From the NCBI GenBank assembly GCA_001818235.1, contig MHJY01000030.1, positions 1-37,701 of the forward strand: a stretch of 37,701 nt of DNA, given 5' to 3'. The stretch comes from Candidatus Jacksonbacteria bacterium RIFOXYB2_FULL_44_15. GTDB taxonomy: Bacteria > Patescibacteriota > Patescibacteriia > UBA9629. Positions 10,869 to 27,014 of this stretch are shown here, piece by piece. Below the pieces are notes generated by a model that saw only the letters and a program-made list of their open reading frames with translations, ran no database searches and was not told the origin of the DNA. Each line of letters begins with the position of its first letter. The stretch's first letter is position 1. A program made the position numbers and the translations under genes.

Positions 10869-10903
10869 GGGTCATCTCAAAAATAGCAAAAACGTCATTT
10901 TGT

Positions 10904-11014
10904 CATCCCGAGCTTGTCGAGGGATCTCTTATTTGAGCCATTGTTTATGAAAGGGATCCCACCCAAAGGGTGATCAGCCTCTGGCTGGCCTCGCTAACGC
11001 TCGGAATGACGGTT
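10904..11014. repeat. Dispersed palindromic repeat (gtcatcccgagcttgtcgagggatc ... cacccaaagggtgatcagcctctggctggcctcgctaacgctcggaatgac)
   Basis: Shares arms with units at 2263-2320, 14345-14415 and 17717-17832. Confidence 0.8.
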
Positions 11015-11045
11015 TTGAGATAACCTCTAGTAATTTCTGCATCCC

Positions 11046-14224: not shown

Positions 14225-14344
14225 GTAATGATGACGACTGTATATCCATTTTTATGGAAATGACACCAATCAACTATGATTTGATTTTAGCACAACAAAT
14301 CCCAAAAAACAAATCACAGACTTGTCTGATCAGAACGTCAATTT

Positions 14345-14415
14345 GTCATCCCGAGCTTGTCGAGGGATCCCTTTGCCCGCAACAAAAGGGATTCCTCGAC
14401 TCCGCTCGGAATGAC
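14345..14415. repeat. Dispersed palindromic repeat, simple form
   Basis: gtcatcccgagcttgtcgagggatccctttgcccgcaacaaaagggattcctcgactccgctcggaatgac: self-complementary arms. Confidence 0.8.
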
Positions 14416-14448
14416 AGTACACTGAGCAATATCAAACCTAAACTAACT

Positions 14449-16122: not shown

Positions 16123-16231
16123 ATTTTTGGAACGGTATTATAGGTAGTTTTAAATAATCAGTCAAGCGCCCCAAATAAATGCATCCACTGGCACTCCGAA
16201 TACATAATACATATTTTGATGATTGTAGCTT

Positions 16232-16852
16232 CTATCCCAGAACGCGGCCGACTTTAAGCACGTAAGACGAAATCGTCCAGGCAATGGAAATCACAATCGC
16301 GCCGATCGCGGCCCAGACCAAAATGTGCTTGCCCTTGGTAACTTTATCTTCACTGCCGCTGGAAGTTAGCCACATCGCCCCGCCGTAAATAATCATTAAA
16401 ACCACCAACACCCCCAAAAATCCCAAACCGATATTGATAAACCGCCGGACAGTGTCGCGAATGTCTGAAGCCGTACCTAAAGTACCACCTAAACTAGTAT
16501 CCCCGGTATCTATCTCGCAAGTGCTGTCAACGCAAATCGCCCCGCCCTCGCACTGCCAATCATCCATACACGGTCCGTCACCAATTCTAAGCAAGCAAAC
16601 ATTAGTTGGACAAAAATTATATTCATTGGTCGTGCAAATCATATCTACTTTGCCGGTACCACCATTCGTACTACAATAAAGCGGAACTTTACTCGCATTT
16701 GTAACACCGCAGGGTTGACCAACGTTTTTTACGTCTGGTCCGGCTGGTATATTACAATCAAACGATGCCGCCATTACTTGTCTGTTACCTGCAATTAAAG
16801 AACCGACGATAGCCGAAATAAAAATTAAAAAAAATTTTATTGTTCTATTCAT
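16232..16852 (-). CDS. T4SS-pilin/VirB2-like two-TM protein with N-terminal Cys-rich ectodomain
   Basis: Signal peptide, Cys-rich region (CLLRIGDGPCMDDWQCEGGAICVDSTCEIDTGDTSLGG), then DIRDTVRRFINIGLGFLGVLVVLMIIYGGAMWLTSSGSEDKVTKGKHILVWAAIGAIVISIAWTISSYVL. Confidence 0.8.
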   Translation of the reverse strand: MNRTIKFFLIFISAIVGSLIAGNRQVMAASFDCNIPAGPDVKNVGQPCGVTNASKVPLYCSTNGGTGKVDMICTTNEYNFCPTNVCLLRIGDGPCMDDWQCEGGAICVDSTCEIDTGDTSLGGTLGTASDIRDTVRRFINIGLGFLGVLVVLMIIYGGAMWLTSSGSEDKVTKGKHILVWAAIGAIVISIAWTISSYVLKVGRVLG

Positions 16853-16883
16853 AATGCTTATGTTATTTAGTTGTTATAAATAT

Positions 16884-17537
16884 TTAACCAATAGAGTGAC
16901 CAATCTCAAGGATGTAAGAAGAAATCGTCCAGGCAATGGAAATCACGATCGCGCCAATCGCGGCCCAGGTAATAATGCGTTTGCCTTTCTCGATTTTTTC
17001 ATCACTGCCAGCCGCGGTCAGCCACATCACACCGCCGTAAATTACCATCACCACCGTAATTATCCCCAAAAATCCCAAAGCCACGTTAATAAACCGACGA
17101 ATTGTGTTGCGAATATCGTTCGTACTGCTACCCAGCGCCCCACCTAAACTTGTTTCGCCAGTGTCGACAACGCATTGTTTCTTGTTGCGATCATACATCG
17201 CACCGCCTTCGCAAGAAACTTCTGGCGTAATTCCACTATCTGGTGTCTGCCCAATTTTATAAAGACAAATCGTAAAAGGATTGGGATTGTAATTATTAGT
17301 ACTGCAAATAAACTTAGTCGAGTCACATTTAATTTTGGTTGGCCCAGTAGTACTGGCCGTAGATGAAGTTTGCCCACAGTGGCAACCTACTTCTGTAACA
17401 ACATTAGCCACCGTCGAGCTACCACTTGTAGTTGCCGTACATTCGGGGCCTTTCCAATTATAATCTAATGCCTCAACCCCCAGCGGCAAAAGTAAGAGAA
17501 AAAAAGATGCAATTATTATAAATTTTATGTGCTTCAT
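16884..17537 (-). CDS. T4SS-pilin/VirB2-like two-TM protein with N-terminal Cys-rich ectodomain
   Basis: DIRNTIRRFINVALGFLGIITVVMVIYGGVMWLTAAGSDEKIEKGKRIITWAAIGAIVISIAWTISSYIL; paralog of its neighbour. Confidence 0.8.
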   Translation of the reverse strand: MKHIKFIIIASFFLLLLPLGVEALDYNWKGPECTATTSGSSTVANVVTEVGCHCGQTSSTASTTGPTKIKCDSTKFICSTNNYNPNPFTICLYKIGQTPDSGITPEVSCEGGAMYDRNKKQCVVDTGETSLGGALGSSTNDIRNTIRRFINVALGFLGIITVVMVIYGGVMWLTAAGSDEKIEKGKRIITWAAIGAIVISIAWTISSYILEIGHSIG

Positions 17538-17716
17538 AGTTGAATCGTTAAATTATTCTGCATTTTCTGCCTGCGTTAAGTAATGTTGATTACTTTTTCG
17601 CGCGCTTAACGCTCGACAGGAGATCATCACGGCCTGCTTTTTATCCCTCCAAGATAAAAGCCGCTTAACCTACTCTCGATCGTCAAACTTGAAACTTTGC
17701 CGGCCTCGCCACGCTG

Positions 17717-17832
17717 TCATCCCGAGCTTGCCCCGTCACTCGCGAGCGACGGGGCTTGTCGAGGGAACCCTTATTCACATAAGGGATTCCTCGACTCCCC
17801 CTCGACGCTGCTCGGGGTCGCTCGGAATGACA
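17717..17832. repeat. Dispersed palindromic repeat carrying nested secondary palindromes
   Basis: Outer arms as at 14345-14415. Inner CCCCGTCACTCGCGAGCGACGGGG at 17731-17754 is flanked by CTTG (17727-17730 and 17755-17758). Confidence 0.8.
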
Positions 17833-17865
17833 AATCATGGCCAATCTGACTAAATTTCTCAATTC

Positions 17866-18927
17866 TTAATTACCGACTCCTTGGCTGACGCTCAAAACGT
17901 AACTTACAATCGTCCAAGCGATACCAATGATGACTAATCCGATCAAACCAGAAACAATTGTCTTCTTGGCTTTTTCGACTTTCTCGTCATCACCGGCCGC
18001 GCTCATCCACAAAGCGCCGCCGTAAATCACGATAATCACGCCAGCGACGCCCAGGAAGCCCAAGGCAATGTTGATTAAACGGCGAATTTGATCGCGAATA
18101 TCTTCGGTCGTGCCGCCAACGCCCAATTCCACGGCCTGCTCAGCACCGATATCGCGCACGCACTGCCCGATATTGTTGTCGTCAAGTTCACAAACTAAAC
18201 CACGGTCACAGCGCTGTGCCCGCGCCACATCTTCAACTAATTTACCTAGATCAGGATCTTTGTTGATCGAGCTATCACTGCAGTCAATGCCACGCCCGGC
18301 ACCGACGCAAATATTCTCGTCCTTGTTACAGGTATATTGGAAATTGACTTTGCGCACATCGCAGTGGTCTACTTCCGAACACCAGGTACCAATCGCGATC
18401 CGATCACGAACGGCCACACACTTCTTTACTGCTCCGGTTTCGGAACAACGTAAAGTATCTAGAAAACAGCTACCTTGAGGCCCTGGATTAAAGCTGTCGA
18501 TAATACAGACGTCCCCAGCTAAATTGCGCACTAAGGTAATGTTGGCATCCACTGTTTTGCCAGAAATAGCATCTTTTACAGTCAGAATTACGACCGTGCC
18601 CGGAGCTACCGCACCAACGACCGGCGCGGTGTAGCTAACGGTAAAATTCGAGACATTACCGGCAAAAGGTACTATGGTCGGCAAGGGCGCTATTGCCGGT
18701 ACCGCGGTCACAGACACGTTAGCCTGAATTACTGTATCTCCGCTAACACTTACGCTAAAAATATAAGGCGTTGGGTTGCCTAAAATTACCTGGCTACTTT
18801 GTGGCGAAATATTAATACTGGCAATCGCGGCCTGGGCGCCACTGGCGTTCACCACCAAGGCCACTGCCACCGCCACTACGCCCACGAAAGTGAACATAAT
18901 GGCTTTTTGAATTAGACTTTTGGGCAT
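17866..18927 (-). CDS. Pilin-like two-TM protein with Ig-like plus Cys-rich ectodomain (paralog 1 of 3)
   Basis: IASINISPQSSQVILGNPTPYIFSVSVSGDTV...; CSEVDHCDVRKVNFQYTCNKDENICVGAGRGIDCSDSSIN; EDIRDQIRRLINIALGFLGVAGVIIVIYGGALWMSAAGDDEKVEKAKKTIV. Confidence 0.8.
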   Translation of the reverse strand: MPKSLIQKAIMFTFVGVVAVAVALVVNASGAQAAIASINISPQSSQVILGNPTPYIFSVSVSGDTVIQANVSVTAVPAIAPLPTIVPFAGNVSNFTVSYTAPVVGAVAPGTVVILTVKDAISGKTVDANITLVRNLAGDVCIIDSFNPGPQGSCFLDTLRCSETGAVKKCVAVRDRIAIGTWCSEVDHCDVRKVNFQYTCNKDENICVGAGRGIDCSDSSINKDPDLGKLVEDVARAQRCDRGLVCELDDNNIGQCVRDIGAEQAVELGVGGTTEDIRDQIRRLINIALGFLGVAGVIIVIYGGALWMSAAGDDEKVEKAKKTIVSGLIGLVIIGIAWTIVSYVLSVSQGVGN

Positions 18928-19008
18928 AAAAACCTCTTACGAAGCGAGCTAAACCTTTTTCGGAGCGAGTCTGCCCCGCCCCCCGCAAATAATTTAACTT
19001 GCTTCAAT

Positions 19009-20079
19009 TTATTTTAAACCTTGACTAACAGAAATAATGTAACTGACGATTGTCCAGGCGATCCCGATAATAACCAATCCGATCGCTCCGGCAATAATCG
19101 TCTTCTTGCCTTTCTCCACTTTATCTTCTTCTCCCATGGCTGACATCCAGAGGAAACCGCCGTAAATCACGATAATCACGCCGATTATTCCTAAGAAACC
19201 CAGCGCGATATTGATAATCCGGCGAATCTGGTCGCGGATATCCTCGGTCGAACCGCCTAACCCCAGCTCAGTGGCTTGCTCGGCGCCAATGTCGCGAACG
19301 CATTGGCCAACATTGTTGTCGTCGAGTTGGCAGACTAAACCGCGATCACAACGCTCTGGCCGCGCGATATCTTCCACTAACTTGCCTAAATTAGGATCAG
19401 TGTTGATTGCGCTGTCGCTACAATCCACTCCCCGGCCAGCGCCAACACAATAATTGTTCTTCTCATTGCAAGTGTATTGGAATTCTACTTTTTTAACATC
19501 GCAGTGATCAAATTCCGAACACCATGTGCCAATCGCCACCCGGTCGCGCGTAGGCACGCATTTCTTGGCGGCGCCAGCTTCGGCACAACGTAAAGTGTCC
19601 AGGAAACAGCTACCTTTCGGACCTGGGTTGATAGTATCAATCACGCAAACATTACCGCCTAAATTGCGAGTTAAAGTGATGTTGGCATCAACCGTTCTAC
19701 CGCTTTTTACTTCGGTCACTTTAAAAACTACTACTGTTCCCGGGGCCGCGGCCGAAACTGCTGGCGGTCTATAATAAACCTTAAAGGATGACAATCCAAC
19801 ACCGACCCAAACTTGCTTGCTAACTGTACCAAGCGCCGGTGGCACCGTACTAACATTAATATTGGCTGAACCGGTAACAGTATCACCGGAAACTGAAACG
19901 TTAAAGGTCATTGTTGTTCCCCCCAAAATACCCTGGGTACTCCTTGGCGAGATGTTGATGCTGGCAATCAGCGCCTTAGTTTCGGTAGGTTTAACCACCA
20001 GAATTACCGCCAAAACCGCTACCCCGACAAAGAGCATGGTAAGTACTCGTTGGAATTGATTCTTGATAAAGCGCTTCAT
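19009..20079 (-). CDS. Pilin-like two-TM protein with Ig-like plus Cys-rich ectodomain (paralog 2 of 3)
   Basis: Nearly colinear with 20155..21213. Start taken at MKRFIKNQFQRVLTMLFVGVAVLAV; the track ORF starts at 20139. Confidence 0.8.
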   Translation of the reverse strand: MKRFIKNQFQRVLTMLFVGVAVLAVILVVKPTETKALIASINISPRSTQGILGGTTMTFNVSVSGDTVTGSANINVSTVPPALGTVSKQVWVGVGLSSFKVYYRPPAVSAAAPGTVVVFKVTEVKSGRTVDANITLTRNLGGNVCVIDTINPGPKGSCFLDTLRCAEAGAAKKCVPTRDRVAIGTWCSEFDHCDVKKVEFQYTCNEKNNYCVGAGRGVDCSDSAINTDPNLGKLVEDIARPERCDRGLVCQLDDNNVGQCVRDIGAEQATELGLGGSTEDIRDQIRRIINIALGFLGIIGVIIVIYGGFLWMSAMGEEDKVEKGKKTIIAGAIGLVIIGIAWTIVSYIISVSQGLK

Positions 20080-20154
20080 TAATTTAGATTGAACCGCCCG
20101 GGGGCCGGGAAAAATCCGACCCCCGCAAAGGCAATTCAAGTTGTTTCTAATTAT

Positions 20155-21213
20155 TTATTTCAAGCCTTGGCTGACGGAAATGATGTAGCTGACGATCGTC
20201 CAGGCGATACCAATAATAACCAAACCGATGGCACCGGCAATAATCGTCTTCTTGCCTTTCTCTACTTTCTCGTCATCGCCCATGGCCGACATCCAGAGGA
20301 AACCGCCGTAAATCACGATAATCACGCCAATCACTCCCAAGAAACCAAGCGCAATATTGATAATCCGGCGAATCTGATCACGAATATCCTCGGTCGTGCT
20401 ACCTAAACCTAACTCAGTAGCTTGTTCGGCGCCAATGTCGCGAACGCACTGGCCGACATTGTTGTCGTCGAGTTCGCAGACTAAACCGCGGTCACAACGC
20501 TCTGCCCGCGAAACATCTTCCACTAACTTACCTAAATCAGGATCCGTATTAATCGAGCTGTCGCTACAATCCACTCCCCGGCCAGCGCCAACACAATAAT
20601 TGTTATCAACATTGCAAGTGTATTGAAACTCTACTTTTTTAACATCACAGTGATCAAACTCCGAACACCAGGTGCCAATCGCCACCCGGTCGCGCGTAGC
20701 CACGCATTTCTTGGCGGCGCCAGCTTCAGAACAACGCAGAGTGTCCAGGAAACAGCTACCTTTCGGGCCTGGGTTAATTGTATCAATCACGCAAACATCA
20801 CCGCCCAAATTGCGCGTTAAGGTAATGTTGGCATCAACAGTTCGACCGCTTTTTATTTCGGTCACTTTAAAAATTACTACTGTCCCTGGAGCAGCGGCGG
20901 CAACTGCTGGCGGTCTGTAATAAACCTGAAAGGATGACAAACCAGCACCGGCCCAAACTTGCTTGCTAACTGTACCAAGCGCCGGCACTGTACTAACAGT
21001 AATATTGGCTGAAGTGGTAACAGTATCACCGGAAACGGAGACATTAAAGGTCATTGTTGTACCTCCTAATATCCCCTGGGTGCTATTCGGCGAAATATTG
21101 ATGTCGGCGATCAGCGCTTGCGTCACGCTCGGCTTAGCCACCAATATTACTGCCAAGGCCGCCACACCCAAAAAGGTGAGCAATAAAGCCTTTTTTAGTA
21201 AATTTCTGGGCAT
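20155..21213 (-). CDS. Pilin-like two-TM protein with Ig-like plus Cys-rich ectodomain (paralog 3 of 3)
   Basis: Same architecture as 19009..20079. C-terminus EDIRDQIRRIINIALGFLGVIGVIIVIYGGFLWMSAMGDDEKVEKGKKTIIAGAIGLVIIGIAWTIVSYIISVSQGLK. Confidence 0.8.
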   Translation of the reverse strand: MPRNLLKKALLLTFLGVAALAVILVAKPSVTQALIADINISPNSTQGILGGTTMTFNVSVSGDTVTTSANITVSTVPALGTVSKQVWAGAGLSSFQVYYRPPAVAAAAPGTVVIFKVTEIKSGRTVDANITLTRNLGGDVCVIDTINPGPKGSCFLDTLRCSEAGAAKKCVATRDRVAIGTWCSEFDHCDVKKVEFQYTCNVDNNYCVGAGRGVDCSDSSINTDPDLGKLVEDVSRAERCDRGLVCELDDNNVGQCVRDIGAEQATELGLGSTTEDIRDQIRRIINIALGFLGVIGVIIVIYGGFLWMSAMGDDEKVEKGKKTIIAGAIGLVIIGIAWTIVSYIISVSQGLK

Positions 21214-21374
21214 ACTATATTGTGGGCAGGGCTAAATTCTCTGGAAAGGCAGATGACACTGCGCAGGTTGTCATCTAACGTATTCCCTAGAAAATCTAAC
21301 CTGACGTACAATTTTATTTATTTAAAACTTATTTTGATATTTTTTGATGCTTTTGATTTCTCTGAACAAATATT

Positions 21375-21824
21375 TTATCCAATCGCCCGACCAACCTGCA
21401 AAACATACGAAGTAATGGTCCAGGCAATGGAAACGATTACCGCGCCAATCGCCGCCCACACAAGCGTATGCTTGCCTTTGGTAACTTGATCTTCCCGGCC
21501 AGCCGAGGTAATCCATAACAAGCCGCCGTAAATTATCATGATAACTACAATCGTCCCTAAAAGCCCCATTGCGACGTTAATCATTACCCGAATATTAGCC
21601 CTAGGGTCGCTGACGCTGGAACCAAAGCCGCGATTGGCCGTCACCTCAGAACCGTATAAACAACGCACAGCTGGTTTTGTAGTACCATCTGTCGTGTGCC
21701 CACTGGCATCTAACATAACGTCGCCCGGGGCGCAAGTAATTGCTCGGGTCGTTTGCACTCCATAAATTGCCCCGCCTAAAATAAAGCTGGCAACTATTAA
21801 AATATAAAAACTTATTTTCATCAC
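21375..21824 (-). CDS. Pilin-like two-TM protein with short ectodomain
   Basis: DPRANIRVMINVAMGLLGTIVVIMIIYGGLLWITSAGREDQVTKGKHTLVWAAIGAVIVSIAWTITSYVLQVGRAIG. Confidence 0.8.
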   Translation of the reverse strand: MMKISFYILIVASFILGGAIYGVQTTRAITCAPGDVMLDASGHTTDGTTKPAVRCLYGSEVTANRGFGSSVSDPRANIRVMINVAMGLLGTIVVIMIIYGGLLWITSAGREDQVTKGKHTLVWAAIGAVIVSIAWTITSYVLQVGRAIG

Positions 21825-21890
21825 TTATCCACAATTTAACTGTATTATACCACTGGCGACTGTTTGGGGTCAAATAAAAATTATAATCTC

Positions 21891-22247
21891 TCAGCCAGTG
21901 GTTGAGACAGCTGACAAAATGCCGAGTAAGTAACTAATCAAGGCGTAGGCAATAAAAATGATGACTAAGCCTAACGTTGTCCAGTACAAATTATCTTTAT
22001 ACTTTTGCAGGCTGGTGGGATTCCCCCGCGAATAAATCATTCCAAAACCGGCAATGATAAAATTTAAAAGCGCTAGGGTTCCGACGATTCCTAAAATCGC
22101 CTGAATAACCCGGGCGACCAGTTCGTACGGATCAGAAACATTTAATGGATCCTGTAATTTAACCGCAAGAGCAATTTGGGGTATGAGTAAAATCAAGCCC
22201 AGGCCTGAGAGATAAATAAATTTTTTGAGACGTTGAGCAAAAAACAT
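21891..22247 (-). CDS. Minimal pilin-like two-TM protein without ectodomain
   Basis: 118 aa: signal peptide plus PYELVARVIQAILGIVGTLALLNFIIAGFGMIYSRGNPTSLQKYKDNLYWTTLGLVIIFIAYALISYLLG. Confidence 0.75.
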   Translation of the reverse strand: MFFAQRLKKFIYLSGLGLILLIPQIALAVKLQDPLNVSDPYELVARVIQAILGIVGTLALLNFIIAGFGMIYSRGNPTSLQKYKDNLYWTTLGLVIIFIAYALISYLLGILSAVSTTG

Positions 22248-22263
22248 AATATCAATTTGTCAT

Positions 22264-22390
22264 AGATTGTCTGGGAATTCTACTCCGTCTTGACGGAGGT
22301 GAAAAAGGACAATGCTTTATGGCTTATTTAAGCCTTTGTTAAATGACACCCTGTCAAGACAGGGGAGAAATGACAATTCGCGGACAGTCC
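22264..22390 (+). mobile_element. 127-bp MITE-like element, copy A
   Basis: Imperfect terminal inverted repeats AGATTGTCTGGGAATT / AATTCGCGGACAGTCC (12/16). Internal hairpins CTCCGTC-TT-GACGGAG, GGCTTA-TT-TAAGCC, CCCTGTC-AA-GACAGGG. Copy B has the same length. Confidence 0.75.
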
Positions 22391-22438
22391 TGTCTAAAAT
22401 AATATCCAATGTTGAAAATAAAACCGTTTTGATTCTCC

Positions 22439-23272
22439 CTACTTAGTAGTAGCCGGCGGTACGCACGGCGGCTTGGGGCATTTAGGCAATTTAGCCGGGC
22501 CGCAACAATATTGGCCTTCCCTACATAAAGTCTCATCTTCTAAACAATCATACTCTAACTTCGGGTTATTCGGATCAGGGCCAGCCGCTTCTTCCCGCTT
22601 GCGTTTAACGTCTGTTATCTGCACACAACTATATGCGTCTAAACCTTGGCGCTGACCTGTATTACCAAAATAATCTTGATAATCGTCATTATTAGCTAAA
22701 AAAGTACAAGCATCCTCATTAAAACACGTTCCATTTTCGTCACAATGGCCCCACAATGTGTTCGTGCCACTCGCCAACTTACACGGCGTGCCAACACCGC
22801 GGCTAAAACAAGCTAGATCAGGATCTGTTGAACCAAGAGGCGGTTCGCAAACGTAATCCCACGGATTACCAAAAATTTTAAAAGTTACTTTTTGGCCGTT
22901 GGCATTAGCCAACTCTGATGGCGATCCAGCCGCCGTACCAAGTCCGAAAAGAACAAAGTTTACCAACTGCCAAGCCGCCAGCACCACAATACCGCCGTAA
23001 ACCGCATTCCACATTAAATCTTTGCCGCGTTGGATCGATTCCGAATTGCCCCGTTTCCACATCAAGTACCAAGCGACCCCGACGATAAAAAGGCCAAAAA
23101 TCGACACCCCTAAAAAGTACAATAAAAATTCAGAAATCCGGCCGATCACATCTACTATATCACACAAGCCGCAATTACCGCCATAGACGCACGGCGGCAA
23201 AAGCGACACCTGGGCGAGGGCCGGGAGAGGGAGGAGGAGAAGAGTGAGCGTTAAAATGATAAGTACTGTCAT
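22439..23272 (-). CDS. Pilin-like two-TM protein with reversed architecture (TM hairpin first, Cys-rich C-terminal domain)
   Basis: Signal peptide, then IGRISEFLLYFLGVSIFGLFIVGVAWYLMWKRGNSESIQRGKDLMWNAVYGGIVVLAAWQLVNFVLFGLG, then Cys-rich tail ...CLEDETLCREGQYCCGPAKLPKCPKPPC. Confidence 0.7.
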   Translation of the reverse strand: MTVLIILTLTLLLLPLPALAQVSLLPPCVYGGNCGLCDIVDVIGRISEFLLYFLGVSIFGLFIVGVAWYLMWKRGNSESIQRGKDLMWNAVYGGIVVLAAWQLVNFVLFGLGTAAGSPSELANANGQKVTFKIFGNPWDYVCEPPLGSTDPDLACFSRGVGTPCKLASGTNTLWGHCDENGTCFNEDACTFLANNDDYQDYFGNTGQRQGLDAYSCVQITDVKRKREEAAGPDPNNPKLEYDCLEDETLCREGQYCCGPAKLPKCPKPPCVPPATTK

Positions 23273-23299
23273 GTCACTGTGTTATTTTAACAATGCCGG

Positions 23300-23442
23300 T
23301 TAATTTTCAATTTTCAAATACCAATTTTCAATAAATTTTCAATGACTAAATTTTCAAACAGTTAGCTTTAGTGCCGCTTTGAAAATTAAATCATTAATTC
23401 ATTGGTTATTGATTGAAAATTGTAAATTGTAAATTGAAAATT
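23300..23442. repeat. Long AT-rich imperfect palindrome built of TTTTCAA words
   Basis: ttaattttcaattttcaaataccaattttcaa...gactaaattttcaaa pairs with tttgaaaattaaatcat...attgattgaaaattgtaaattgtaaattgaaaatta. Confidence 0.75.
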
Positions 23443-24859
23443 ACTTGAGTGTCTGCGTCACCTGCTGAGCCGCTGTGTTTAAAACCGCCTCCAGCTCCCC
23501 CTTGCCCGCGGCCGCGTCGCCCATCATCGTCATTAAAGCCTCTTCGGCCTTCGGCGCGTTTGCGCCATGATACCAGCTCAAAGCTTGCGGCGCTTGGCTG
23601 GCAAAAACTTTTAGATAAGGATCAACCGCCAACGCTTGATGTTCTTTTAAAGGCGACAATCGGTTGCCGGAATTTTGCAGTTTCAACAAATTTTCCGGCC
23701 GCGACAGCCAGTTTAGGAAATGCCAGGCTTGATCTTGATATTTTGATTTTTTTGCCACTGTTTCCACCCAATAATTAGCCACCGTTAAATTGCCGACCGC
23801 TTCTTGGGGCGACGGCATAGCCGCCACGCCAAAATTTACTTTGGAATTGCGAATCTCTGCCAAGTTGTAAGCGTACCCAAAAAGATAAGCGAGCTTCCCC
23901 TGCTTAAACATTTCCAAGGCCGGACTTTGGCCAACATTCCAGGTGTAAACTTTTTTATTCGGATCAGCAAAATCAACGTAAAAACGCAGGGCTTCCAAGC
24001 CGGCGTTATATTCGTCCTCTGGCCGGATACTGCGGTTAAAAGTAGCGTAGGTATTTGCCTTATCAAACATCTGCACCCCGGTTTGCATCATCAAGGTTAT
24101 CAAAATATCCGTTGGCCTGATGACGTTTTCGGTTGTGCCCAAGGCCGCCCCAGCCACGATTACATTATTAGTCTTATCAATCTTCGTAATTTTCATCACG
24201 TCTTCCTGAAACCTCTGCCAATTAGTCGGTACATCAAAAATTTCGTTCTCTTCCAATAAACCTATATTATAGTAAAGGGCCATGTTATCCACGTAAAGCG
24301 GCAGGGCCAGCACTCCCTGCGTTTCCTGCCCCAAAGCGTGAACCGCCTCAAGATCAACCGTCGACAACACATCATCGCGCACAAAAGCGTAATAATTCCG
24401 TTTGATGTCAGCTGAGGTCAAAAGAGTAACTTCCTCGGTATAAACATTCTGCACCGAGGCCGCGAGTTCCCCAATCCCGGGCTCTCTCATAATCACCCGC
24501 TGAATTTTCGCGCTTGCCGGAGACGGCACGATAACATTGGCGTAAAGCGGCAACCAGTCGTGCGGTAGAGAAAATAGATCAGGCCCGCGATCCTCGGCCC
24601 AGGCTTTTAACAACTCCTGCTCGTACTCCTCAAACCGCAAAGACCGAAAACTAATCTGCACATTTGGGTACAATTTTGTATATTCGTCGATCAAAGGCTG
24701 CATCTCCACGGAATTATTCCAAACCTGCCAATAAGTTAAATTGATATTTTGGACATCAGCCAATTCCTGCGGCGTCGGTTTGCAACCAAAACCAGTCAAA
24801 AGCAAAAGCGCCGCCAAGACAGACATTTTTTTAATCGTTGATTTACCGGGCAGTAACAT
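23441..24859 (-). CDS. Extracellular solute-binding lipoprotein (ABC sugar-type)
   Basis: Lipobox LLLTGFGCKP; NLTYWQVWNNSVEMQPLIDEYTKLYPNVQISFRSLRFEEYEQELLKAWAEDRGPDLFSLPHDWLPLYA. Confidence 0.9.
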   Translation of the reverse strand: MLLPGKSTIKKMSVLAALLLLTGFGCKPTPQELADVQNINLTYWQVWNNSVEMQPLIDEYTKLYPNVQISFRSLRFEEYEQELLKAWAEDRGPDLFSLPHDWLPLYANVIVPSPASAKIQRVIMREPGIGELAASVQNVYTEEVTLLTSADIKRNYYAFVRDDVLSTVDLEAVHALGQETQGVLALPLYVDNMALYYNIGLLEENEIFDVPTNWQRFQEDVMKITKIDKTNNVIVAGAALGTTENVIRPTDILITLMMQTGVQMFDKANTYATFNRSIRPEDEYNAGLEALRFYVDFADPNKKVYTWNVGQSPALEMFKQGKLAYLFGYAYNLAEIRNSKVNFGVAAMPSPQEAVGNLTVANYWVETVAKKSKYQDQAWHFLNWLSRPENLLKLQNSGNRLSPLKEHQALAVDPYLKVFASQAPQALSWYHGANAPKAEEALMTMMGDAAAGKGELEAVLNTAAQQVTQTLK

Positions 24860-24881
24860 AATTTTTTTGATTGAAATTGAA

Positions 24882-25751
24882 TCAGTCTGGTTTAAATTCC
24901 GCCAAATACTTTTTTAAATCTCGGCCAATTTCCTTATCCTTTAAACCCATGGCGATGTTGGCCTGTATCCAGCCGAGTTTGCTTCCGCAGTCAAACCGTT
25001 GGCCGGAAAAACGATAGGCGTAAACCGGAGTTTTAACTAAAGCGTCGCGCAGGGCGTGGGAGAATCTGATCTCGCCGTCCGGCGCCGGCTCCTGTTCGAT
25101 TAAGGCGTCGACGACTTCTGAGGTCATAATGTAATGCCCCACGATTCCCAGTTTGGAAGGTGCTTCCTCCAGTTTAGGTTTTTCGATGATATGCGAAATG
25201 TGATACAAATTTGGCGCCACTTTCTTTCCGGCGATCACCCCGTATTTTTCGATGGCCGGCCCGGTGATTTCTTCCACCGCCACAATCGGCGCTTGATATT
25301 TTTCCCAAAGCTTAATCATTTGCTTGATTACCGGGGCCCCGATAATCACGTCGTCACCCCACATCACGACGCAGGCCTCGTCCGGCGCGAGCAATCGCCG
25401 CGCGCGCAAAATAGCGTCGCCGTCACCTCGCGGCTCGCCCTGGCGGACAAAATAATAATTAGCCCAAGTTGTCATTTCGCGCACCAGCTCCAGTTGTGAC
25501 TTCTTGCCTTTTTTCACCAGTGCAGATTCCAGTTCGCAATTTACGTCAAAATAATCTTCCAATGACCGCTTGGTCGAAGAGGTAACAAAAATAATGTCGC
25601 GAATGCCGCTTTCGACCGCCTCCTTTACTATATAATGGATAACCGGCCGATCAACAATCGGAAACATTTCTTTGGGAATAGTTTTAGAGGCTGGCAAAAT
25701 TCGGGTGCCGAGTCCGGCCACCGGAATGATGGCTTTGGTGATTTTCTTCAT
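24882..25751 (-). CDS. galU: UTP--glucose-1-phosphate uridylyltransferase
   Basis: MKKITKAIIPVAGLGTRILPASKTIPKEMFPIVDRPVIHYIVKEAVESGIRDIIFVT...RFDCGSKLGWIQANI. Confidence 0.96.
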   Translation of the reverse strand: MKKITKAIIPVAGLGTRILPASKTIPKEMFPIVDRPVIHYIVKEAVESGIRDIIFVTSSTKRSLEDYFDVNCELESALVKKGKKSQLELVREMTTWANYYFVRQGEPRGDGDAILRARRLLAPDEACVVMWGDDVIIGAPVIKQMIKLWEKYQAPIVAVEEITGPAIEKYGVIAGKKVAPNLYHISHIIEKPKLEEAPSKLGIVGHYIMTSEVVDALIEQEPAPDGEIRFSHALRDALVKTPVYAYRFSGQRFDCGSKLGWIQANIAMGLKDKEIGRDLKKYLAEFKPD

Positions 25752-25818
25752 AGAATCAATTCTTATTATCTATAGTGTAGAAACAATTGCGGCTACTGTC
25801 AACGCGAGCACGAAGCAG

Positions 25819-25945
25819 AGACTGTCCGAAAATCGGCATTTCTACCCTGTCTTGACAGGGTGTCATTTAACAAAGGCTTAAATAAGCCATAAAGCATCGT
25901 CCTTTTTCACCTCCGTCAAGACGGAGTAGAATTCTCAAACAGCCT
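25819..25945 (-). mobile_element. 127-bp MITE-like element, copy B (inverted relative to copy A)
   Basis: The reverse complement matches 22264-22390 at about 116/127 positions by hand count. Same TIRs and three hairpins. Confidence 0.75.
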
Positions 25946-25947
25946 GA

Positions 25948-26169
25948 TCAAAGATACACAATAAAAGCCAGCACCGCATGAGTGACTGCGACGACAAGTG
26001 TGGCAAACGCCAATTTTTTGTGCCAACGAAAAGGAATCAACCTTATCCCCTTTTGATTCAGAAGCGGCACCGAAATCGTCAAGAGCATGAGCAACAAAGT
26101 AACTATACCCAAATCAAAAAACAATGGCCTGCCTAAAATTGGATAACTGGCGATGTTTTGGATAGTCAT
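25948..26169 (-). CDS. Small two-TM membrane protein
   Basis: 73-aa hydrophobic ORF with WHKKLAFATLVVAVTHAVLAFIVYL. Confidence 0.6.
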   Translation of the reverse strand: MTIQNIASYPILGRPLFFDLGIVTLLLMLLTISVPLLNQKGIRLIPFRWHKKLAFATLVVAVTHAVLAFIVYL

Positions 26170-26204
26170 AAAAGATTATATAATTCTGATGGTGGTTGTA
26201 ACCG

Positions 26205-27014
26205 CTATCGGCCAGTCCGGTTAACCGCCAAAGCAATTAAAAATAAAATGAAATTGAGAATGACAATCGCGGCGCCGGCCGGTAAATCCAGATAGTAAGA
26301 AATCGTGATGCCCAAAATTACCGAAAACACCGCGCCACCAGCCGCCATCAACAAGGCAAATTTTAAACTCTTGGCCAACTGTAATGATGTAACCGCCGGC
26401 AAAATTAACAGCGCCGAAACCAACATAATGCCAACCACCCGCACCGCCAGGACAACCGTCACCGCAGTCAACAAAACCAGCATCGTGTTCAGCCGGCCGG
26501 TGGCGATGCCGCTCACTTTAGCCTGTTCTTCATCAAAGGTGGCAGAGAATAAATCATGATAAAACATAATCACCACAATAATGACAATAATGGATAAAGT
26601 GATGGCCGCTATAGTCTCCGGCCCGCTGATGGCCAAAATATTGCCGAAAAGATAACCGAGCAAATCAACGTTAAAGCCATGCGCCATCGTGGCCAAAATT
26701 ACGCCGCCGGCGATGCCGACTGCCGAAACAATGCCAATAGCCGCGTCCCCGTAAACCTTGGCCCGCTCGGTCAGCTTTAAAATAAAATACGAACCCAGTG
26801 CCACCACCGGCAAAGCCACAAACAAAGGATAAATTCCGGTAAACAAACCAAGCGCCACCGCGCCAAAAGCAACGTGCGACAGCCCATCGCCGATCATCGA
26901 CATCCGCCGCAAAACCAAAAACAATCCCAGCAACGCGCAAAGAAGCGCGATAAACGAGCCGGCCAGAAACGCCCGCTGGATAAAAATAAAATGTAAAAAA
27001 TCAAAATTAATCAT
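26205..27014 (-). CDS. Metal ABC transporter permease (ZnuB/MntB family)
   Basis: LVLRRMSMIGDGLSHVAFGAVALGLFTGIYP; polytopic; overlaps the ATPase gene. Confidence 0.9.
   Translation of the reverse strand: MINFDFLHFIFIQRAFLAGSFIALLCALLGLFLVLRRMSMIGDGLSHVAFGAVALGLFTGIYPLFVALPVVALGSYFILKLTERAKVYGDAAIGIVSAVGIAGGVILATMAHGFNVDLLGYLFGNILAISGPETIAAITLSIIVIIVVIMFYHDLFSATFDEEQAKVSGIATGRLNTMLVLLTAVTVVLAVRVVGIMLVSALLILPAVTSLQLAKSLKFALLMAAGGAVFSVILGITISYYLDLPAGAAIVILNFILFLIALAVNRTGR

Follow-up and report, generated by a model that had tools for sequence, protein, structure and literature searches.

Two inverted copies of a 127-bp palindromic element in a Jacksonbacteria genome, with a shared outer terminus and REP arms matching those beside a RAYT gene

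In a contig of Candidatus Jacksonbacteria bacterium RIFOXYB2_FULL_44_15 (37,701 nucleotides, all of it analysed and here called the window), two inverted repeats lie on either side of about 3.4 kb that includes galU. Are they mobile elements, as an earlier note made from the sequence alone proposed, do they bound an invertible segment, as it also suggested, and how did two copies arise? Alignment of copy 1 (22264..22390, +) with the reverse complement of copy 2 (25819..25945, -, inverted relative to copy 1) gave 11 mismatches over 127 bp, or 91.3% identity, and no strong inverted repeat in the window was longer than this pair (122 nt, 93%). Because the 30 bases outside the copies matched at only 6/30 and 3/30 positions, the boundaries could be set at 22264/22390 and 25819/25945, and a terminus profile from other elements, described below, gave the same ends. 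The equal length and roughly 91% identity counted by hand in the note were thus borne out, as was the point at which the similarity stops.

Taken entire, each copy folded as a single long, imperfect palindrome, with energies of -52.4 and -54.5 kcal/mol and z-scores of -6.2 and -6.7 against dinucleotide shuffles. The imperfect terminal inverted repeats of ~16 bp and the three small internal hairpins described earlier were present in both. The element has no coding capacity (127 bp, no ORF of at least 90 aa), and both copies are intergenic, copy 1 ending 48 bp from the stop of a pilin-like gene and copy 2 starting 67 bp from the galU start. No target-site duplication was found for the pair, in agreement with the note, nor in 10 elements of the genome. 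The differences between the copies fell mainly at the ends, again as noted, at 9/38 positions of the outer part (the shell) versus 2/89 of the core (Fisher p = 0.0003, a somewhat optimistic value, as the core boundary was chosen from the arm motifs after inspection of the alignment). This suggests that core and shell had separate histories. Copying of the whole unit would not by itself explain so uneven a spread, which points to a core that was exchanged or converted.

Outer termini and their relatives in the genome

A search of the 1.25-Mb draft genome with copy 1 returned two near-complete copies only, the other matches being short pieces. Some of these pieces were the outer terminus, GACTGTCCGAGAATT, bounding elements with a different interior. 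The shell common to the pair and its genomic relatives has termini of ~16 bp, AGACTGTCCGAGAATT. A pattern search of the genome allowing up to 3 mismatches found 62 sites, against 20 for a reversed control, and convergent terminus pairs enclosed elements of ~125-180 bp on contigs C3, C10, C14, C16, C25, C34, C49 and C54. By alignment, the interior of these eight elements is a dimer of TGTCATYCCGAGC hairpins, which agree with the CGTC/TGTC class of REPs described by Di Nocera et al. (PMC3733652).

The terminus profile was built from both ends of all eight elements, 16 in total, with the window pair left out. Over the whole window, the four ends of the pair ranked 1-4, at exactly the coordinates given in the note. 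In copy 1, the end without a TGTC remnant (22264..22279, +) scored 16.9 bits, among the window's best four sites, and the short end (22375..22390, -) scored 17.1 bits and, by alignment, has the family's TGTCATT on its inner side. In copy 2, the short end (25819..25834, +) scored 21.4 bits and the other end (25930..25945, -) 16.9 bits. As proper terminus pairs they reached 38.3 and 34.0 bits, whereas 40 windows simulated with a first-order model gave a top pair score of 23.7. A central motif, CTTATTTAAGCC, is also shared: it lies at 22323..22334 (+) in copy 1, at offset 60 in the element, and at 25875..25886 (-) in copy 2, and several family members carry it at offset 59-60. A full-length family HMM matched copy 1 weakly (E = 0.0084) and copy 2 in fragments only, as expected if the inner arms of the pair differ from those of the family.

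A covariance model gave 79 matches over both genome strands, which correspond to some tens of distinct REP-dimer loci, many of them without a recognisable shell. The window itself holds a TGTC/CGTC REP dimer of the genome-wide family with other outer ends (10869..11026, +; model R1, 104.6 bits), a related dimer with a decayed shell (14323..14421, +; model R1, 67 bits) and a further related, decayed one (17715..17847, +; family HMM, 53.8 bits). In the genomes compared, the genus was represented by this one alone, and its single companion from the taxonomic family had no match. The proposal of a non-autonomous mobile element family is supported by ends that match those of eight or more further loci of the genome and of a widespread class in other phyla. 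As for the 127-bp unit as such, its ends recur at those eight or more loci, but the near-complete element is confined to the two copies.

Inner arms and the RAYT link

The pair departs from its relatives in the inner arms, which are CTAC-type REPs where the relatives have TGTC/CGTC-type REP hairpins. Both copies contain two inverted REPs and a spacer. Pattern search placed the arms of copy 1 at 22280..22298 (+; CTACTCCGTCTTGACGGAG, two mismatches to the REP flanking a RAYT gene of the same genome) and 22349..22367 (-; CTCCCCTGTCTTGACAGGG, one mismatch). In copy 2, the arm at 25842..25860 (+; CTACCCTGTCTTGACAGGG) is identical to REPs beside that RAYT (G000:C23), and pattern search placed the other, CTACTCCGTCTTGACGGAG, at 25911..25929 (-). 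The gene in question is an ORF with a Y1_Tnp domain (G000:C23:2999-3595), which is flanked by CTACYCYGTCTTGACRGRG, the inner hairpin that made up others of the short pieces matched by copy 1. Its homologues (E <= 1e-8) occur in 28/381 genomes of the class, the host genome included. The closest, in G136, is 56% identical; upstream of it, CTACCCTGTCTTGACAGGG or a variant differing by one base occurs twice, and downstream lies an inverted pair of REPs. Hairpins with the same tag and other stems occur at two further homologue loci. Since matching REPs flank both the C23 gene and its G136 homologue, the window arms can be assigned to the REPs of a C23-type RAYT system. A second Y1_Tnp gene of the genome (G000:C45:17068-17406) has its own, different flanking hairpins, of AACCAGGTTA type.

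The TGTCATT remnant in copy 1, at the short end, points to replacement of TGTC arms by CTAC arms, and the inner arms of the pair were probably exchanged within a MITE/REPIN-like composite. CTAC arms occur in only two copies in the genome, and movement of the CTAC sub-type therefore rests on a single duplication.

REPINs, or REP dimers moved by RAYTs, were reportedly described by Bertels and Rainey in 2011. In E. coli REPs the tag lies 5' of the stem, whereas in the window REPs, on the strand that reads GTAG, it lies 3' of the stem. The pair resembles REPIN/RAYT systems (PMC3733652) in its inverted pair of tagged REP hairpins with a spacer and in arms that match RAYT-flanking REPs, and differs in being enclosed by a further terminal repeat common to elements with another REP type. 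The TGTC-AT-stem hairpins of the other shell-family members fit the class of CGTC-tagged REPs, for which a dedicated transposase is reported to be lacking (PMC3733652); the window pair differs in its CTAC arms, with TGTCATT left over only in copy 1, at one end. In A. variabilis and H. neapolitanus, REP dimers likewise lie nested inside outer palindromes, and empty palindromes were not found (PMC3733652). One REP type per palindrome was described there, whereas here one shell holds two types in one genome and recurs in many phyla. With bacterial MITEs the elements share small size, lack of coding sequence, terminal inverted repeats, sharp ends and several related copies at unrelated sites; unlike them, they have no parent transposon among the pairs examined and no target-site duplication in the genome.

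Movement of the shell and its contents

Exact paired termini 90-120 bp apart were found in 55 stretches of a collection of bacterial and archaeal genomes, among them Spirochaetes, Ignavibacteria, Flavobacterium, Lachnospiraceae, Peptococcaceae, several CPR groups and others. Their interiors vary, also inside one genome; 39/55 fold better than shuffles (z below -2), and a TGTC/CGTC REP arm occurs in 13/55, versus 0.2 expected. Direct repeats outside the termini are the trace that a cut-and-paste transposon would leave, and such repeats, 4 bp long, flanked a minority of the shell elements in other genomes, with one genome supplying several of the cases. Viral contigs yielded no CTAC REP and one shell pair. 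Literature searches gave nothing relevant on the shell, nor on REPs or MITEs in CPR/Patescibacteria.

The note had looked to a transposon with matching terminal repeats. No transposase bounded by the shell turned up among the exact pairs and the subset of near-exact pairs examined, in assemblies that are fragmented. Termini 0.3-3.5 kb apart in the loci inspected were mostly two-mismatch pairs. Two candidate shell transposons were rejected, the ORF enclosed at G004:C69:281-2249 resembling by eye an FAD oxidoreductase and that in G005:C334 a permease, neither a transposase. The complete chromosome of Flavobacterium covae showed no exact terminus pair 0.7-2.5 kb apart, and the 17 shell sites inspected there were mostly short, mutually related repeats. 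In a Falkowbacteria genome (G007), three shell ends (L200, L212, L215) adjoin Y1 genes, one of them directly before a RAYT-like ORF; at L212, a truncated Y1 gene continues directly into TTTTCGGACAGTCTGG. A Y1 transposase as the partner of the shell was nevertheless not adopted, as the C23-type RAYT loci examined elsewhere have no exact shell terminus; two of them have a lone one-mismatch shell site each.

On balance, we favour the reading that both members of the pair are copies of one mobile element, short, palindromic, non-coding and built in two layers, of which the whole unit was moved or copied while the core was exchanged separately. Its outer layer would consist of the two ~16-bp termini, AGACTGTCCGAGAATT, which recur in further elements of the genome and in the class seen across many phyla. 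Inside these would lie two REP hairpins with a short spacer, usually of TGTC/CGTC type and here of CTAC type, the latter belonging to the RAYT (HUH, Y1) transposase whose gene lies elsewhere in the genome. The whole 127-bp unit was most likely moved or copied by a presumed transposase acting in trans on the shell. The REP core would have been gained or swapped independently, with RAYT activity or hairpin recombination as possible routes. Sharp ends and a common shell and spacer are what movement as a whole unit would produce. The excess of differences in the shell counts against simple one-time copying of the whole unit.

That excess is also an argument for mobility of the 89-bp REP core only, a REPIN moved by the C23 RAYT that entered two pre-existing shells of separate origin. 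A near-identical core within diverged shells (2/89 vs 9/38, p = 0.0003) is what this would predict, REP dimers nested in outer palindromes are known from other bacteria (PMC3733652), and many genomic REP dimers have no recognisable shell. However, the core itself contains the family's central spacer motif, at a matching offset, which insertion of a foreign core would not give. Moreover, neither the pattern search nor the convergent pairs revealed any empty shell in the genome, so that the shell as a pre-existing target was set aside, and the genome search with copy 1 found no core copies outside a shell. We consider this account unlikely.

Less probable again is homogenisation of the core through gene conversion, which the inverted orientation of two older copies would have helped and for which recent movement would be unneeded. 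The copies are just 3.4 kb apart and their differences are unevenly spread, but the origin of two copies with unusual arms would be left unexplained. There is slight reason, too, to suppose that the elements are kept as RNA hairpins of the surrounding genes, in 3' end protection or attenuation. Their folds are strong (z about -6.5), they lie close to the pilin-like stop and the galU start, and an action of REPs at the RNA level has been proposed (PMC3733652). Against this, the nearest relative has no match anywhere, an Rfam scan of the window gave nothing at the gathering threshold, and the palindrome is equally explained by mobility.

A shell that mostly encloses CGTC-type REPs, encloses RAYT-linked REPs here and occurs in many phyla offers a sequence handle on the question of how such hairpins spread. 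A bolder extension, which we put forward tentatively and with some doubt, is that the ACTGTCC-RARAA shell is a cross-phylum carrier with an exchangeable interior, enclosing whichever hairpins its host has (TGTC/CGTC REPs, RAYT-linked CTAC REPs or other palindromes). Were this true, it would link a terminal-repeat mobile unit to REP systems, including the CGTC REPs, which are reported to lack a transposase of their own.

The segment between the copies

Domain matches confirmed the gene content given in the note: a T4SS_pilin-like gene (slightly below the Pfam cut-off), a solute-binding protein (SBP_bac_1) and a GalU-type nucleotidyltransferase. Genes inside and outside the segment are all on the - strand, and the pilin-like gene adjoins co-oriented pilin genes outside the repeat. 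The nearest relative, G001, has galU, the solute-binding protein and the pilin-like gene in identical order, all on one strand and adjoining pilin genes; there, overlap between the ORFs of the last two junction genes leaves no space for an element. More distant relatives with visible neighbours keep the order and strand of galU and the solute-binding protein, and of pilin genes where these are visible; in G029, a galU match was absent from the stretch inspected. As order and strand are kept in relatives, the block is ancestral, and the 3.4 kb between the copies is most likely neither cargo nor switch. Inversion is accordingly hardly credible: 127-bp inverted repeats of 91% identity could in principle recombine, but the order and strand are those of the nearest relative, no relative examined has the block inverted, the genes on both sides of the repeats share the - strand and no recombinase was noted beside them. 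Mobile-element material, rather than a switch around galU, is the most likely identity of the pair.

Copy 2 lies at a break in gene order (window 25751-26205), with an ABC-3 permease upstream of galU here and a glycosyltransferase in G001. A run of T4SS_pilin genes on the - strand occupies window 16212-23272 and includes three tandem copies (17866, 19009, 20155), ~1.14 kb apart and 69-87% identical over 300 nt. AT-rich repeats of TTTTCAATTTTCAA type form an inverted pair at window 23301-23443 and occur again at 2323-2400.
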